DNA from: Natrinema salsiterrestre
GTDB taxonomy: Archaea > Halobacteriota > Halobacteria > Halobacteriales > Natrialbaceae
Direction: 5' to 3'
Length of the DNA: 64,000 nucleotides
Assembly (NCBI RefSeq): GCF_029502005.1
Contig: NZ_JAMQOT010000001.1
Location: forward strand, 496,001 to 560,000
Shown piece after piece: positions 22,536 through 60,707 of the stretch. The notes below the pieces were generated by a model. The model was given only the letters and a program-made list of their open reading frames with translations, had not been told where the DNA came from and searched no databases. Both the position numbers and the translations under genes were made by a program. How positions within the stretch are numbered: the stretch's first letter is position 1; every line of letters starts with the position of its first letter.

Positions 22536-23222
22536 TTACTGGCGTCGGTCGTCCGCGAGGATCGCGTCCATCAGCTTCGTCTGGGCCGCCGCCAGGTGTT
22601 CGGTGAACGTCGACCGGGCGACGCCGAGCTCCTCGGCGACGTCCGTCGCGTTCGCCCCCTTCGGGTAGTCGAAGTAGCCCATCTCGTGGGCCGTCTCGAG
22701 GATCTCCCGCTGTCTGCTCGTGAGCGCGTCCCTGTCGACGACGACCGGATCGGCCGAGCTATCTTCGTGGTCCTGGGTGAGTTCCTCGACGATGACGCCG
22801 TCGAAATACGCGCGCAGTTCGTCGACGATCTCCGCGATTTCGGCCAGCTCGAGGGTGCGAAAGGAGAGGAGCAGCGAGCCGTTCTGGGCGCGAACCGAGG
22901 AGAGCGGGGTTCCCGTTCGCTCGACGATTTCGCAGGCGCAGTCGGCCGTGCCATCGCGTTCGAATCGGTAGATCGACTCCCGGTCGTTGGACTGGACCGG
23001 GGTAAACTCGACGTCGTACTCCCCCTCGATCGAGGCGTCGGCGGAGACGCCGAACTCCTCGACGACCGTTCCGTCCGCCGTCGCCTGCGACGACCGAGAG
23101 ACGGAGTCGACCGGTTCGTCGGCACGCGCGGAGACGTCGGCCACCGGACAGTCCCCCGGTTCGTCGACGACGACCGTTGCACGAAAGCCCGTCATATCGG
23201 TCCGTACGATGACACGCGGCAT
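22536..23222 (-). CDS. HTH_10 (Bat-type) transcriptional regulator
   Basis: 228 residues from MPRVIVRTDMTGFRATV. The N-terminal ~150 residues form a sensor-like domain that includes a CACEIVERTG segment. The C-terminal ~55 residues are the Bat-type helix-turn-helix: LTSRQREILETAHEMGYFDYP, then AEELGVARSTFTEHLAAAQ. Such regulators are abundant in haloarchaea and are often fused to GAF/PAS sensors; the signal and targets here are unknown. Possible targets are the neighbouring sulfite-reductase operon or itself. Confidence 0.9.
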   Translation of the reverse strand: MPRVIVRTDMTGFRATVVVDEPGDCPVADVSARADEPVDSVSRSSQATADGTVVEEFGVSADASIEGEYDVEFTPVQSNDRESIYRFERDGTADCACEIVERTGTPLSSVRAQNGSLLLSFRTLELAEIAEIVDELRAYFDGVIVEELTQDHEDSSADPVVVDRDALTSRQREILETAHEMGYFDYPKGANATDVAEELGVARSTFTEHLAAAQTKLMDAILADDRRQ

Positions 23223-23325: not shown

Positions 23326-24570
23326 TCAACACCACTCCTCGTACTGGTGGACGCGGGCCGGGTTCAACGGTTCTGGCTCGCGATCCGTCCCGTCGTACGC
23401 CTCGCGGTGGGCATCGTAGGTGATTCCGACACTCGCCTCGGGGTCGAACTCCCGCGGAAGGATCGATTCCGCGCGTCGGCGGTTCCAGTCGGCCAGCGTC
23501 TCGAGGGCCGTCGGCCGATCGATCGCCGTCGTCTCGAGGGCAGTCGCCGCCCGCGTCCAGGCGGCCTCGCCGGTCTCGGTGCGGACGATCGCGGTCGTAT
23601 AGCCGTCGTCGCTGCCGACGTTGCCGACGCTGATGTCGGCCGCGTCGCCGACGAAGTCCGCGCACTCGTCGCAGCCGCGCAGTCCCGCCGCGTCGAACGC
23701 GTCGACGTCCGCCTCGAGGAGCGTCTCGCCGGTCTCGTCGACCGCGCGGAGCCGTCCCTCGCCGATGTCGAGCGTCTCGACGGCCGCGGGATCGACGTCG
23801 AACGACTCGAGCCGAGAGAGCAGGCGGCCGTGCTCGAAGCTACGAGTACACATCAGGGCGACGGTGAGCGCGATTGGATCGGCGGGATCGTGGTCGTAGC
23901 GGTCGAGCGCGGTGGCTCCCTGTATCATACACGGGGTGCCGACCAGCGCGAGCTCGGGATCGTCGGACCCGAGATCGCCCTCCGCGAGCAGCGCCTCGAT
24001 CCGCCCCAGGCCCATCGTCTGGGTGTAGATGCTGCCGCCGGCCGCGAGCAGGTCCTCGCGCGAGGTCGCCAGGAACGCCTCGCCGCGGAGCGGCTCGTCC
24101 TCGCGCTCTCGAGCGACGATCGCCCCGTCGAGCTCGCCGACCTCGATCAGTTCCGCGAGGAGTGCGGTCACGACGCCGCCGTCCTGCCCGGCGGCCGCAG
24201 CTTCCCCGTCTGCCCGCGCCGCGTAGGTAGCCGGCTCCTCGAGGGCGCGCTCCTCCCGCGCGAGCTCGAGGTGGCGCTCGTACCGGAGCCCGCTGCGGGG
24301 ACAGAAGTCCCAGCAGCGCGAGCAGCCGGTACACATCTTGACGAGGGTGGGTCGGCCCTCGTCCTCGTCGATGCCGATGGAGTCGGACGGGCAGGCGGCG
24401 ACACAGGAGGCACACTGGATACAGCGGTCGGCCTCGATGACGGCCTCGTCCAGATCGCGGAACCAGATCTTGCCGGGGGCCTCGGCAACGTCGCGGTCCT
24501 GCTCGCGCGGATCGCTCCCGACGCCCTTGACGCCCCGCTGAGGGACGCCCGGCTCGTGTGTGCCGCTCAT
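23326..24570 (-). CDS. FrhB/FpoF-like F420-interacting iron-sulfur flavoprotein
   Basis: 414 residues. Two N-terminal [4Fe-4S] motifs: Cys50, 53, 56, 60 (CIQCASCVAACP) and Cys80, 83, 86, 90 (CTGCSRCWDFCP). The FrhB N- and C-terminal domains follow (QDGGVVTALLAELIE; VGTPCMIQGATAL; GLRGCDECADFVGDAADISVGNVG). This family passes electrons between coenzyme F420 and iron-sulfur partners using FAD. Its start abuts the stop of the rhodanese-sulfite reductase gene (24570/24571), so the two are co-expressed. In methanogen Fsr the same FrhB-like and sulfite-reductase parts form one chain; here they are separate. I infer this protein is the F420H2 (or ferredoxin) electron input for the reductase. Confidence 0.82.
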   Translation of the reverse strand: MSGTHEPGVPQRGVKGVGSDPREQDRDVAEAPGKIWFRDLDEAVIEADRCIQCASCVAACPSDSIGIDEDEGRPTLVKMCTGCSRCWDFCPRSGLRYERHLELAREERALEEPATYAARADGEAAAAGQDGGVVTALLAELIEVGELDGAIVAREREDEPLRGEAFLATSREDLLAAGGSIYTQTMGLGRIEALLAEGDLGSDDPELALVGTPCMIQGATALDRYDHDPADPIALTVALMCTRSFEHGRLLSRLESFDVDPAAVETLDIGEGRLRAVDETGETLLEADVDAFDAAGLRGCDECADFVGDAADISVGNVGSDDGYTTAIVRTETGEAAWTRAATALETTAIDRPTALETLADWNRRRAESILPREFDPEASVGITYDAHREAYDGTDREPEPLNPARVHQYEEWC

Positions 24571-26976
24571 TCACCTCACCTCCGTTTCGATGGCGGGCGG
24601 GTCGCGCGCCGGCCCGTCAGTGACGATCTCTCGCAGGTCCGCGTTCGACGTGCGGCGAGTCCACTCGGTGAACGACTCGCCGGGCTCGCTGTCGGCGTCG
24701 TAGGCGAGCATCGTCGCTTTGACCACCCCGGGGACGTCGTCGATCGGTATCTTTCCGACGAGCCAGTCGATGAACTCGTCGTTCCCGAGGTCGCCGCCGA
24801 GGCCGAGGTCGGCCGCTCGCCCGGAGTCGTAGTCGTCTCGGTAGACCTCCCCGCGCAACCCGAAGTCGCCCAGCTGCGGTTGCGCACAGGAGGCCGAACA
24901 GCCCGACATGTGGATCCGGATCGCCTCGTGGTCGTCGGCGATCCCGGCCGCCTCGGCCCAGTCGTCCAACTCTCGGGCCCACCTGATCGCCCGGTTCTTC
25001 GTCTCGATGATCCCGTAGTTGCAGAACTCCCGCCCCGTGCAGGTGACGATCCCGCGCGTGAAGGGACCGGGATCGGGGCTGTACCGCTCGAGGAGCGGGT
25101 CCTCGAGAAGACGCTCGAGGCCGTCGTCGGTCAGATGCGGCACGAGGACGTTCTGGTTCGGCGTCAGGCGTAGCTCGCCGCCTCCCAGCTCGTCGCTCAG
25201 GGCGGCGAGGGCGGCGAACTCGTCGCCACCCATTCGGCCCGTCGGGACGTTCAGCCCCGCGTACGAGCGGCCGTCGGCCTGCTCGTGGACGCCGACGTGA
25301 TCGCCACGGTAGTCCGTCGTCAGGGTCTCGTCCGGTTCCTCGAACGCGAAGTCGGCGTAGGACTCGAGTTCCTCGCGGAACGCCTCGGGGCCGAACTCGG
25401 CGACGAGGAAGCGCAGGCGGTTGACCGCGGTGTCGAGGTAGCTGCCGTGGTCCGCGAACAGGTCGGCCATCGCGGCGACGAGGTCGTCGACCCGATCGGG
25501 TTCGACGAACAGATCGATGTCGCTCGCGACCCGGGGGCCGTCGGAGAGCCCGCCGCCGACTCGCGCGACGAACCCGTCGCGGCCGTCCTTGCGGGCGGGC
25601 GTCAGCCCGAGATCCTGAATGCTCGAGCGGGCGCAGTCCTCGTGACATCCGGTCACGCTGACCTTGAACTTCCGTGGGAGGTTCGCGTAGTGTCGATCGC
25701 CGAGGAATCGCTGACTCACCCGTTCGACGACGGGTTGGATATCGACGGTCTCGGCGGGATCGAGTCCGTCCGCGGGACAGCCGACGACGTTTCGCACCGA
25801 GTTCCCGCAGGCCTGCATCGTCGAGAGCCCGACCGCGTCGTAGCGGTCCCAGATCTCGGCGACGTCTGCGATCTCGATCCAGTGCATCTGGACGTCCTGG
25901 CGCGTCGTCACGTCGAGGTAGCCGTCGCCGAAGACGGGGTTCTGGTCGGGGCCACCGTACTCCTCCGGAGCGCGGGCGAATTCGTCGGCCACCTCGCCGA
26001 TCGTGCGGGCCTGCTCGGCGGTGAGGATACCGCCAGGGGAGCGGGTCCGCAGCATGAAGTACCCCCGTTGCTTCTGGTGGTAGAGTCCGATCAGCTTCAG
26101 GCGGCCGAGCACGTCCTCGCCCAGGTCGTCCACCATCGCCTCGAATCCCCCGTTGTCCGCGTAGTGGCGGACCTGCGCCTGTAACTCGACGGGATCCCAC
26201 TCGGGCGCTTCGGCGCGCACCCAGTCGGTCAGGCTCCCCTCGTAGAACGAGACGTCCTCGTAGCCCAGGTGTCGGAGCGCGACGAACGTGTGACTGAGTC
26301 GCCGCGCCGTGTTGCAGTAGAGGACGATCCGCTCGTCGGGCGTGAGCCCGTGCTCGGCGAGCAGTTCCTCGAGCGTCGCTTCGTTTCTGAGTCGACCCTC
26401 CTCGAGCAGGTCCTCCCAATCGAGGTGGACGGCACCCGGAACCCGCGACTGCTCGTACTCGGCGGCGGTACGGGTGTCGACCACGACGGCGTCGCCCTCG
26501 ACGGCGGCTTCGACCGTCTCGCGGTCGGCGATCGGGGCGTCCGCTCGTAGCTTCGCTTCATAGGGAGTCGGATCGGAAGACGGACGGTCCGTGCTGAGCG
26601 ATCCGTCCTCGCCGTCGCGCCACGCCTCGAGGCCGCCATCGAGCAGCGAGAGGCGGCCCTCGTGGCCGTAGACGAGGGCGGTCAGCAGAAACCGAGCCGC
26701 GAGCGCGCCGCCGTCATCGCCGTAGGCGACCACGGTGTCGTCGCGCTCGATGCCGGCCGCGGATAGGAGGGCCGCGAAGTCGTCGGCGGTCGGTAGTTTG
26801 CCGTCGACGACGCTGCTCGGATCGCGAAACCGATCGGCCGGGACGTTGACCGCACCCGGAAGGTGTCCCAGTTCTTCGTAGTCGCGTTCCTCGCGGACGT
26901 CGACGACGACCACCGACTCCGCGTCGCGATGGGCCTCGAGCCACGACGGCGAGACGATGTCGAGCGCGGTACTCAC
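24571..26976 (-). CDS. Tandem-rhodanese / siroheme sulfite (nitrite) reductase fusion
   Basis: 801 residues. Residues 1-125: rhodanese domain whose active-site loop has no Cys (AYGDDGGALAAR). Residues 145-255: second rhodanese with Cys221 in LYCNTARRLSHT. From about 260: two ferredoxin-reductase-like/siroheme repeats. The C-terminal half has the full siroheme-[4Fe-4S] ligands, C-X5-C (CTGREFC) and C-X3-C (GCSASC). The N-terminal half also has Cys pairs (ACGNSVRNVVGC and GCHEDC). An inactive/active rhodanese tandem is typical of thiosulfate sulfurtransferases. Together with the FrhB-like neighbour, the likely role is reduction of sulfite, perhaps from thiosulfate, to sulfide; nitrite is the alternative. 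Confidence 0.85.
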   Translation of the reverse strand: MSTALDIVSPSWLEAHRDAESVVVVDVREERDYEELGHLPGAVNVPADRFRDPSSVVDGKLPTADDFAALLSAAGIERDDTVVAYGDDGGALAARFLLTALVYGHEGRLSLLDGGLEAWRDGEDGSLSTDRPSSDPTPYEAKLRADAPIADRETVEAAVEGDAVVVDTRTAAEYEQSRVPGAVHLDWEDLLEEGRLRNEATLEELLAEHGLTPDERIVLYCNTARRLSHTFVALRHLGYEDVSFYEGSLTDWVRAEAPEWDPVELQAQVRHYADNGGFEAMVDDLGEDVLGRLKLIGLYHQKQRGYFMLRTRSPGGILTAEQARTIGEVADEFARAPEEYGGPDQNPVFGDGYLDVTTRQDVQMHWIEIADVAEIWDRYDAVGLSTMQACGNSVRNVVGCPADGLDPAETVDIQPVVERVSQRFLGDRHYANLPRKFKVSVTGCHEDCARSSIQDLGLTPARKDGRDGFVARVGGGLSDGPRVASDIDLFVEPDRVDDLVAAMADLFADHGSYLDTAVNRLRFLVAEFGPEAFREELESYADFAFEEPDETLTTDYRGDHVGVHEQADGRSYAGLNVPTGRMGGDEFAALAALSDELGGGELRLTPNQNVLVPHLTDDGLERLLEDPLLERYSPDPGPFTRGIVTCTGREFCNYGIIETKNRAIRWARELDDWAEAAGIADDHEAIRIHMSGCSASCAQPQLGDFGLRGEVYRDDYDSGRAADLGLGGDLGNDEFIDWLVGKIPIDDVPGVVKATMLAYDADSEPGESFTEWTRRTSNADLREIVTDGPARDPPAIETEVR

Positions 26977-58374: not shown

Positions 58375-59349
58375 CTATTCGATTCGTTCCGCGGCCAGCA
58401 GCGACAGGCTCTCGTCCTCGTCGTCGGCCGCGTTCGGAACCGCGAGCATTACTTCCTCGATCCCGACATCGACGTACTCCGCGAGGCGGTCGCGAACCTC
58501 GTCGGGCGTTCCCGTCGGTGCCGTCTCGAGGTATCCCGAGAGGAAGAACTCCCGCGGGTCGGCAGGGTCGTCGGGCAGGAACTCGGACCGGAACGCCTCG
58601 CGCTTTTCCTCGGCCGCCGCGGTCGTCTTGCCGACGAAAACGAACAGCTCGGCGGACTTCCGGATCTCGTCGTAGCGGTCCTCGCTCTCGCAGTGCTCCC
58701 GCAGGACATCGAGTTTCTCCGCAAACCCGTCCGGCTCGAGCGTTCCGTAATTCCAGCCGTCGGCGAGCTCGGCGGTGTAGCGCAGGGTGAACTCCTCGCC
58801 GCCGCCGCCGATCCAGATCGGCGGATGGGGATCCTGGACGGGTCGGGGTTCGCAGAACGCGTCCTCGAGGTCGACGTCGAGGTGTTCGCCCTCGTGGCTG
58901 TACGTCTCCTCGGTCCAGAGCCCCCGTACGATCTCGATCGTCTCGGCGAGACGCCGGAGCCGTTCGGCCGGTGGTTCCCGGAACTCGTAGCCGAAGCGGT
59001 CGTACTCGTCGGCGTACCAGCCGCCGCCGAGTCCCAGCTCGAGCCGCCCGTCGCTCAGCCGATCGACCGTCGCGCCCATCTTCGCGAGCAGCGCCGGATG
59101 ACGGTACGACTGGCTGGTGACGAGGCTGCCGAGCCGTACCCGGTCGGTCGCCTCGGCGACCGCGCTCAGCGTCGTCCAGCACTCCTGTGTCGCACGCCGC
59201 GGGTCGCCGATCCACGACTGGAAGTGGTCCTCGAGCCAGACCGCGTCGTAACCGAGCGCTTCGGCCTCGAGTGCGGTGTCTCGAACCGTTCCGACGTCGG
59301 TCCCGTACTGCGGGAGAACGATTCCGACGTCGAGGTCGGTGACAGTCAT
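58375..59349 (-). CDS. LLM-class (F420-dependent) flavin oxidoreductase
   Basis: 324 residues from MTVTDLDVGIVLPQYGTDVGT. Luciferase-like TIM barrel: YDAVWLEDHFQSW, GSLVTSQSYRHPALLAKMGATVDRLS, LGLGGGWYADEYDRFG, PHPPIWIGGGGEEF. Short archaeal members of this group usually use F420. The start overlaps the ThiDN stop by four bases, so it belongs to the thiamine operon; a role in making or breaking a pyrimidine or thiazole precursor is inference. Confidence 0.86.
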   Translation of the reverse strand: MTVTDLDVGIVLPQYGTDVGTVRDTALEAEALGYDAVWLEDHFQSWIGDPRRATQECWTTLSAVAEATDRVRLGSLVTSQSYRHPALLAKMGATVDRLSDGRLELGLGGGWYADEYDRFGYEFREPPAERLRRLAETIEIVRGLWTEETYSHEGEHLDVDLEDAFCEPRPVQDPHPPIWIGGGGEEFTLRYTAELADGWNYGTLEPDGFAEKLDVLREHCESEDRYDEIRKSAELFVFVGKTTAAAEEKREAFRSEFLPDDPADPREFFLSGYLETAPTGTPDEVRDRLAEYVDVGIEEVMLAVPNAADDEDESLSLLAAERIE

Positions 59350-60707
59350 TTCGCTACCTCGGTCGCCAGCGCCAGCGTTCGATCCGCGAGCGTCTCCGGA
59401 TCGGCGGCGACGAGTTTCACGAGCGCCTCCTTGCCGACCTCGCCGCGGTCGACGACGGCGACCGGGGGCTCGTCCCGGTCGGCGAAGGCCTGCCGGGCTC
59501 CCCAGCCCATCGTGCTCCCCTCGGTCTCCCTGATCTCGTCGGGTTGTTTCCGACGATCGTACTCGGCGACGGGCCACTCGAGCGCCTCGAGCGCTCCCTC
59601 CACGTCCGCGTCCAACCGGCAGTTAACGGCAAACCGAAGCTCGGGGACGAACTCCCGCGCCGACAGGAGGAAGCGGGCGACGTGGCTCGAGGCTCCGAAG
59701 CGAACGCCGCGATTCGGCTGGACGCCCGAGAGCGTTCGGGTGATCCGCCCCTCGACGGCGGCGACTTCGGCGACGGAGTCGGCGTAGGGGGTCGCGCCGG
59801 CGACGTTCATCCCGACCTCGGGAACGAGCGCCGACACGTCGGCGTCGACGAACCGGTCGACGACGGCCTGGACTTCCTCGGCGGTCAGCTCCCGGGTTGC
59901 CTCGTTTCGGAGCGACACCATGTGGTTGACCGCGCCGTGGCCCTCGCCGACGTCGTAGTAGTAGCGGACCGCGCGGGCGAGGAAGTCGGTCGCCCCCTCG
60001 ACTGCGACCTCGAGGGACTCACCCTTCGCGAGGCGGGCCGCGATCGCGGCGGCGAGGGCACAGCCGGAGCCGTGCGTCGCGTCGGTGCCGACCCGCGGGT
60101 GTTCGAACGTCCGAACGGTGTCGTCGGTGACGAGCACGTCTGTGACTGTCTCTCCCGGGACGTGGCCTCCTTTCACGAGAACCGCGTCGACACCCGTCTC
60201 GAGGATCGCCTCGCCGCCCTCGCGGGCGCGTTCCTCGTCGGTCACCGCGACGTCGGTCAGGACCTCCGCCTCGTCGGCGTTGGGCGTCGCCAGCGTCGCC
60301 TCGCCGAGCAGGTCCTCGTAGGCGCGTTCGGATTCGGGCTCGAGCAGCCGGTCGCCGGAGGTCGCGACCATGACGGGGTCCACGACCAGCGGGAAGTCGA
60401 ACCCGCGGGCGCGGTCCGCGACCGTTTCGATGACCTCGGTCGTCGCGAGCATCCCGGTCTTCGCCGCGCCGACCGCGAAATCGTCGGTGACCGCCTCGAG
60501 TTGCGCCTCGATCTCCTCGAGCGGCAAGACGTGCGAGGACTCGACCCCGCGGGTGTTCTGGGCGGTGACGGCGGTGATCGCCGAGGTGCCGAAGACGCCG
60601 TGAGCGGCCATCGTGGCGAGATCTGCCTGGATCCCCGCGCCGCCGCCGGAGTCGCTGCCCGCGATCGTCAGCGCGACCGGCCGGCCGTCGGGTGCTGGTG
60701 TTCTCAT
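59346..60707 (-). CDS. thiDN: Bifunctional hydroxymethylpyrimidine (phosphate) kinase - ThiN fusion
   Basis: 453 residues. The N-terminal ThiD (about 1-265) of the ribokinase fold has LTIAGSDSGGGAGIQADL, DPVMVATSGDRLL, and THGSGCALAAAIAARLA. A linker helix leads into the C-terminal ThiN domain (about 280-450, SALVPEVGMNVAGATPYA; GVRFGASSHVARFLLSA), which in archaea couples HMP-PP and thiazole phosphate in place of ThiE. The fusion is usual in archaea. It overlaps the LLM gene (ATGA). Confidence 0.93.
   Translation of the reverse strand: MRTPAPDGRPVALTIAGSDSGGGAGIQADLATMAAHGVFGTSAITAVTAQNTRGVESSHVLPLEEIEAQLEAVTDDFAVGAAKTGMLATTEVIETVADRARGFDFPLVVDPVMVATSGDRLLEPESERAYEDLLGEATLATPNADEAEVLTDVAVTDEERAREGGEAILETGVDAVLVKGGHVPGETVTDVLVTDDTVRTFEHPRVGTDATHGSGCALAAAIAARLAKGESLEVAVEGATDFLARAVRYYYDVGEGHGAVNHMVSLRNEATRELTAEEVQAVVDRFVDADVSALVPEVGMNVAGATPYADSVAEVAAVEGRITRTLSGVQPNRGVRFGASSHVARFLLSAREFVPELRFAVNCRLDADVEGALEALEWPVAEYDRRKQPDEIRETEGSTMGWGARQAFADRDEPPVAVVDRGEVGKEALVKLVAADPETLADRTLALATEVAK

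Follow-up and report, generated by a model that had tools for sequence, protein, structure and literature searches.

Through genomic analysis of a 64,000-nucleotide stretch of the Natrinema salsiterrestre genome (4.79 Mb), referred to as the window (bases 496001-560000 of contig C11), two adjacent genes have been identified which, judged by sequence, encode a variant of a known haloarchaeal enzyme pair. That pair, in which the siroheme subunit stands alone, has been named the putative F420H2-dependent assimilatory sulfite reductase aFsr alpha/beta (Susanti & Mukhopadhyay 2012, PMC3448663). In the variant the alpha subunit is fused to a tandem rhodanese, and the FrhB-like beta subunit ends in a strictly conserved tail with a terminal cysteine. 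The best explanation of the whole, advanced here tentatively, is that the two proteins form an F420H2-dependent sulfite reductase equipped with its own thiosulfate sulfurtransferase. The nearest annotated relatives across the window belong to N. thermotolerans, N. ejinorense and N. versiforme.

Organization of the two genes

The alpha gene (24571..26976; all features of the pair lie on the minus strand) starts with GTG and runs without interruption for 801 residues. Its Pfam matches, all well over the cut-offs, are two Rhodanese domains (128 bits), two NIR_SIR domains (151 bits) and NIR_SIR_ferr (116 bits); the single 801-residue chain with a full siroheme reductase, reported in a preliminary description of this locus, is thereby borne out, and the reductase is of the full-length NirA/Sir type. 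Rhodanese domain 1 (26617..26952) has no cysteine at the catalytic position, which is Gly or Asp in nearly all relatives. Domain 2 (26215..26514) carries the loop CNTARR, whose catalytic Cys221 (codon 26314..26316) lies in the motif YCNTARR, invariant in all 45 fused copies; these 45 loci include some that were drawn twice from two collections, and the unique sequences number 33. The pairing of a Cys-less with a Cys-containing rhodanese had been read correctly in the preliminary description; it is the ordinary tandem-rhodanese layout. The NirA/Sir-type siroheme-[4Fe-4S] reductase, delimited by Pfam, solved relatives and alignment, occupies residues 259-801 (24574..26202), with the key residues R310, R359, K436 and K438 and the cluster cysteines 646, 652, 693 and 697. 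Within it, residues 512-521 (SYLDTAVNRL, 25414..25443) form a patch confined by alignment to the fused chains, in which it is invariant; unfused aFsr and NirA read DRxNRxxxRM/A there, and in the patch two arginines present in every unfused copy are replaced.

The structure model of alpha (mean predicted local distance difference test, pLDDT, 80.7; predicted template modelling score, pTM, 0.74) agrees with this division: its C-terminal part resembles plant nitrite reductases, Mycobacterium tuberculosis (Mtb) NirA and sulfite reductases, and its N-terminal part tandem sulfurtransferases. The fusion is real and neither a sequencing nor an annotation artefact, because full-length homologues are present in 19 of 125 genomes of the family Natrialbaceae and in 30 of 391 genomes of the class, 13 of the latter outside the family.

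The beta gene (23326..24570, 414 residues) was recognized as an open reading frame with Pfam domains FrhB_FdhB_N, FrhB_FdhB_C and an N-terminal 4Fe-4S dicluster domain. Its ATG follows the alpha stop codon at the very next base, so the directly downstream FrhB-like [4Fe-4S] flavoprotein of the preliminary description is also found as claimed. The ferredoxin-like dicluster domain (24295..24441), located by Pfam and motif, contributes eight cysteines (Cys 50, 53, 56, 60, 80, 83, 86 and 90) which precede both FrhB domains; the FrhB_FdhB_N and _C core (residues 116-351, 23518..24225) is, from Pfam and solved relatives, the presumed flavin/F420 part. The pairing of the two genes is strict: an FrhB gene is adjacent and on the same strand at 45 of 45 fused loci, mostly 0-20 bases away, and the remaining neighbours vary between families. 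Over 75 loci the distances among siroheme reductases and among FrhB proteins correlate at r = 0.97, as expected for a co-inherited unit.

Sulfite as the probable substrate

In the alignment, R310, R359, K436, K438 and Y299 are invariant in 45 of 45 fused proteins, and the same Arg, Arg, Lys-x-Lys and Tyr are seen in fused alpha and unfused aFsr-alpha alike (more than 60 sequences). In Fsr, sulfite is bound by the four equivalent basic residues, which have been reported as a conserved feature of sulfite reductases in general (PMC10229431). The residues are taken as evidence, not proof, of sulfite, because anaerobic methanotrophic (ANME) archaea possess an F420-dependent member of the Fsr family whose substrate is nitrite (PMC9295563).

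The comparison with the other siroheme reductases of the genome is informative. There are three: the fused alpha, a plain aFsr pair on contig C26 (locus L042) and a copy on contig C24. The C26 pair is 51% identical to the fused pair in the siroheme reductase and 43% in FrhB. The C24 copy adjoins NasA (1240 bits against a cut-off of 1000) and a NarK-family transporter, and it has K-x-N (K-F-N) where fused alpha has K-F-K, and Phe and Gly in place of Tyr299 and Cys390. Tobacco nitrite reductase entries likewise show K-x-N, N226K being an engineered mutant there. Nitrite thus has an enzyme of its own in this genome, since a NirA with nitrite-type residues sits by NasA and NarK, whereas the fused pair has no nitrate-assimilation gene context, either locally in the window or among its neighbours across families. 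As the R/R/K-x-K set matches the sulfite-binding residues of Fsr and the C24 NirA differs from it, sulfite is very probably the substrate of the fused reductase.

Tyr299 and Cys390 occupy positions which we take to be those of the covalent Tyr-Cys pair of Mtb NirA. Their use as a universal mark was dropped: the tyrosine is invariant, and the cysteine is kept in 28 and lost in 17 of the 45 fused proteins.

The cysteine tail of beta

The last residues of beta (NPARVHQYEEWC followed by the stop codon, 23329..23364; defined by alignment and motif scan) end in Cys414. The pattern NPARxxQYExWC-stop, with cysteine as the last residue, occurs in 45 of 45 FrhB partners of fused chains (33 unique sequences) and in none of 28 complete unfused partners; the tail and the rhodanese thus co-segregate. 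The tail is invariant at nine of 12 positions, compared with 23% of positions in the beta core and 19% in the stretch just before the tail, although beta itself varies widely across the fused clade (mean pairwise identity 62%, minimum 43%). It is this invariance inside a diverse clade, together with absence from the sister groups, that gives the tail its weight as sequence evidence.

A DNA pattern for QYExWC-stop matched 35 of the 391 class genomes, including all 30 that have a fused chain; a reversed control pattern gave one match in the same scan. In the five further genomes the flanking genes keep their order to left and right, but the fused gene itself is absent: one genome retains a frameshifted FrhB, two only the last 66-74 FrhB residues and two the motif alone. 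Each tail-pattern match is therefore an intact or decayed copy of the fused operon. The remnants lie in five Natrialbaceae genomes (L142, 8259-8828 and 7918-8256; L144, 7668-7865; L145, 7394-7615; L143; L146), at sites flanked by SepF and an HTH_10 regulator; the siroheme gene is gone, and the losses are repeated.

F420 and the electron donor

By both sequence and fold, the nearest solved relatives of beta are F420 subunits of methanogens and ethanotrophs, Fsr included. CofE is encoded in the genome (300 bits against a cut-off of 181), from which it is predicted that the organism makes F420. F420H2 is accordingly the likely electron donor, and no more than likely, given that plant HCAR belongs to the FrhB fold family too.

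Rhodanese and sulfur supply

Alpha fits the plan of tandem sulfurtransferases, with two rhodanese domains, one of them bearing a six-residue Cys loop. The rhodanese is considered to be under selection as an enzyme because CNTARR is invariant in 45 of 45 copies; among distant carriers the rhodanese halves are 50-56% identical, compared with 59% for the reductase. A free-standing, TssB-like tandem rhodanese at C26:19007-19813 shares 52% identity with the fused part; it has the same CNTARR loop and lies divergent to another tandem rhodanese. No rhodanese gene was found beside unfused aFsr within the flanks examined, which would have been a "Rosetta stone" for the fusion; in this genome about 11 kb separate aFsr from the free-standing rhodaneses, a weak link.

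How the cell obtains sulfite bears on the proposal. A profile search found no PF01747 ATP-sulfurylase in the genome, and this family occurs in only 11 of the 391 class genomes, being absent from 380. The sole APS-kinase match (C26:35358) was rejected since it falls in an FtsY-like gene, and so was the sole long CysN match (C11:589843), the sequence being EF-1A. A CysD-like protein (L087:3838-4809), far under the CysD cut-offs and without CysN, is a candidate for sulfate activation. On these profile results no known enzyme can be shown to activate sulfate here; thiosulfate or other donors of sulfite are thereby conceivable, but not proved. Production of H2S from thiosulfate has been described in Natrinema altunense (PMC5333441). 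Thiosulfate feeding by the fused rhodanese is quite possible, if short of probable.

Distribution and descent

The fused chains form one clade (support 99/99) that spans at least four haloarchaeal families. With the genome's own NirA as root, the clade is placed outside the group of unfused copies from haloarchaea and actinobacteria; owing to the long branch of the outgroup, the root is uncertain. On this position, with the same uncertainty of the root, descent of the fusion from a recent duplicate of the organism's own unfused aFsr was rejected.

All 19 Natrialbaceae carriers also keep unfused aFsr. Among the 13 carriers from other families, an unfused aFsr-like copy at 49% identity or more is missing in eight, and one carrier (G222) has no other siroheme reductase match down to E = 1e-40. 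The fused form is thus an extra in Natrinema and its kin and the sole copy elsewhere.

A DmsR_N/HTH_10 regulator gene (22536-23195) adjoins the pair in most Natrialbaceae carriers. It was rejected as a member of the unit: it is absent outside the family and is kept where the operon has been lost, which marks it as local synteny. In Natronoglomus and Natronobiforma (L010 and L011) a COX1-type oxidase gene is found not far upstream of the pair, in L010 together with a heavy-metal P-type ATPase; in Natrinema the setting is instead SepF and citrate synthase. Plain aFsr alpha/beta pairs occur in Rubrobacter-type Actinomycetota as a clade of their own (L018, L024, L033, L036, L041 and others). A further haloarchaeal group of siroheme reductases, 45-48% identical to alpha (E about 1e-130 to 1e-141), is distinct from the aFsr group at 53%. 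Elsewhere in the window, a luciferase-like (LLM) flavoprotein gene (58375-59349, minus strand), of a superfamily that includes F420-dependent enzymes, lies just downstream of a ThiD-ThiN fusion (59346-60707).

Comparison with known systems

The fused pair and aFsr share the two-gene order, with a NirA/aSir-type siroheme subunit next to a homologue of Fsr-N, an FrhB protein carrying two [4Fe-4S] motifs at its N terminus, as well as the siroheme-[4Fe-4S] cysteines and the sulfite-type R, R, K-x-K residues. They differ in that fused alpha adds the N-terminal tandem rhodanese and the SYLDTAVNRL patch, and beta adds the NPARxxQYExWC tail. Rhodanese is not mentioned in the main text of the 2012 aFsr paper (PMC3448663). 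Halobacterial NirA proteins with a rhodanese were reported in 2024 as cluster 195.2 (19 of 529 NirA proteins fused), without a mechanism (PMC11237513), and this cluster almost certainly corresponds to the fusion described here. What the present analysis adds is the FrhB partner, the sulfite signature, the Cys tail, the genomes in which the fused copy is the only one, and the losses of the operon. In the open-licence literature no paper was found that joins the aFsr pair with the NirA-rhodanese fusion.

Fsr group I of Methanococcales (PMC10229431) shares with the pair an FrhB-like F420H2 oxidase, [4Fe-4S] clusters, a siroheme sulfite reductase and the four basic substrate residues. In Fsr, however, oxidase and reductase are joined in a single chain and the reductase is half-length and Dsr-like, whereas the fused pair consists of two chains with a full-length aSir-type reductase and a rhodanese. 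The view that the pair represents a split Fsr, taken in the preliminary description, does not hold: the siroheme half is of the full-length NirA/Sir type and scores about 26 bits to Fsr chains against 269 bits to plant nitrite reductase. Mtb NirA/SirA (PDB 1zj8) is among the best structural matches of alpha and has both the tyrosine and the cysteine, but it possesses neither a rhodanese nor an FrhB partner, and 17 of 45 fused relatives lack the cysteine. Tandem thiosulfate and mercaptopyruvate sulfurtransferases, in turn, are not fused to a siroheme reductase as alpha is.

Proposed mechanism and its alternatives

The pair would act as a two-subunit F420H2-dependent sulfite reductase of the assimilatory aFsr kind, whose siroheme subunit has gained a tandem thiosulfate sulfurtransferase. 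Cys221 of the rhodanese would take the sulfane sulfur of thiosulfate and free sulfite beside the siroheme subunit. F420H2 would reduce the flavin of beta, and electrons would pass in the direction of alpha, through the [4Fe-4S] clusters of beta to the siroheme-[4Fe-4S] centre, where sulfite would be reduced to sulfide (6 e-). The persulfide on Cys221 would then react with a thiol, for which the terminal Cys414 of beta is the most plausible candidate, and a second sulfide would result. The route from thiosulfate to persulfide and sulfite, and on to sulfide with F420H2 as donor, had been put forward in the preliminary description; the sequence evidence suggests it still, and the sulfite-type site and the Cys tail strengthen it. 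The handling of sulfane sulfur by Cys414 itself is a doubtful step. In its conserved terminal cysteine on a conserved tail, beta recalls the C-terminal cysteine arm of DsrC, an analogy for which no homology is claimed. A bolder version, speculative and rather unlikely, extends this analogy: the pair might be a self-contained Mo-free thiosulfate reductase in which the electrons for both halves come from F420H2 (net S2O3(2-) + 4 F420H2 to 2 sulfide), the terminal Cys of beta accepts the sulfane sulfur of the rhodanese persulfide and the tail serves as a separately evolved swinging arm of the DsrC type.

Several points weigh against this mechanism. The structure predicted for beta is of low quality (mean pLDDT 56.5, with residues 377-414 below 50), and the models lend no support to a tail that reaches alpha. 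The tail is the mark of one clade, and its 45 of 45 occurrences do not represent 45 independent events; a Fisher test on the co-occurrence of motif and fusion ignores relatedness and was set aside as evidence. Plant HCAR stands among the Foldseek matches of beta, the FrhB family holding enzymes that do not use F420 too. CNTARR is not the classic thiosulfate loop, and its sequence would also allow mercaptopyruvate or a persulfide as donor. The H2S of N. altunense was ascribed by its authors to two free-standing rhodaneses (PMC5333441), and no assay of any aFsr or of the fusion was found in the open-licence literature. Finally, several relatives have lost the operon, which is for this reason dispensable.

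Among the alternatives, a plain F420H2-dependent sulfite reductase, whose rhodanese uses another donor (3-mercaptopyruvate or low-molecular-weight persulfides) or runs in reverse to detoxify sulfite with persulfide to thiosulfate, and whose tail is a docking peptide, is possible but unlikely. The best NCBIfam match of the rhodanese, a mercaptopyruvate sulfurtransferase model, speaks for it even though it is below the cut-off (89 against 250 bits), and the unfused aFsr retained by every Natrialbaceae carrier, with the losses in relatives, would suit an accessory or stress role. On the other side, the carriers outside the family that have no such copy, G222 above all, indicate that the fused enzyme can be the sole one, and docking alone fails to account for an invariant terminal cysteine. 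Alternatively, the donor could be ferredoxin or NAD(P)H, with the siroheme chemistry as proposed and FrhB as a ferredoxin-type mediator; the FrhB fold also serves plant HCAR, which is ferredoxin-dependent. The F420 biology of haloarchaea, moreover, is little studied (PMC8305020). Such a donor is nevertheless improbable, given that beta is closest to F420-oxidising or F420-reducing subunits, shares with Fsr-N and FpoF an additional dicluster domain at the N terminus, and occurs in a genome predicted to make F420.

Rhodanese domains often serve biosynthetic sulfur pathways, and weak NCBIfam matches to MoeB/MoeZ-type rhodaneses would accord with a pair that makes persulfide or sulfide for Fe-S clusters, tRNA thiolation or the molybdenum cofactor, the rhodanese passing on sulfur made by the reductase. 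Sulfite reductases yield sulfide, however, not sulfane sulfur, and no biosynthetic partner gene is conserved beside the pair across families, which makes such a role a poor candidate. The nitrite reductase of nitrate assimilation is scarcely tenable, even though the top NCBIfam matches of alpha are ferredoxin-nitrite reductase and NirA family models, its best solved relatives are plant nitrite reductases, and the ANME enzyme provides a precedent. All NirA models score under their cut-offs (362 against 594 bits), and this identity was rejected on the active-site residues, K-x-K instead of K-x-N and Tyr299/Cys390 instead of Phe/Gly, together with the separate NasA/NarK-linked NirA.

Significance

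The role of coenzyme F420 in haloarchaea was called enigmatic in a 2021 review, with a single F420-dependent reaction reported (PMC8305020). The two genes described here make both this question and that of haloarchaeal sulfur assimilation directly testable. Genomes with both versions of the enzyme, with the fused form only, with the unfused form only and with fresh losses of the operon constitute a natural experiment.
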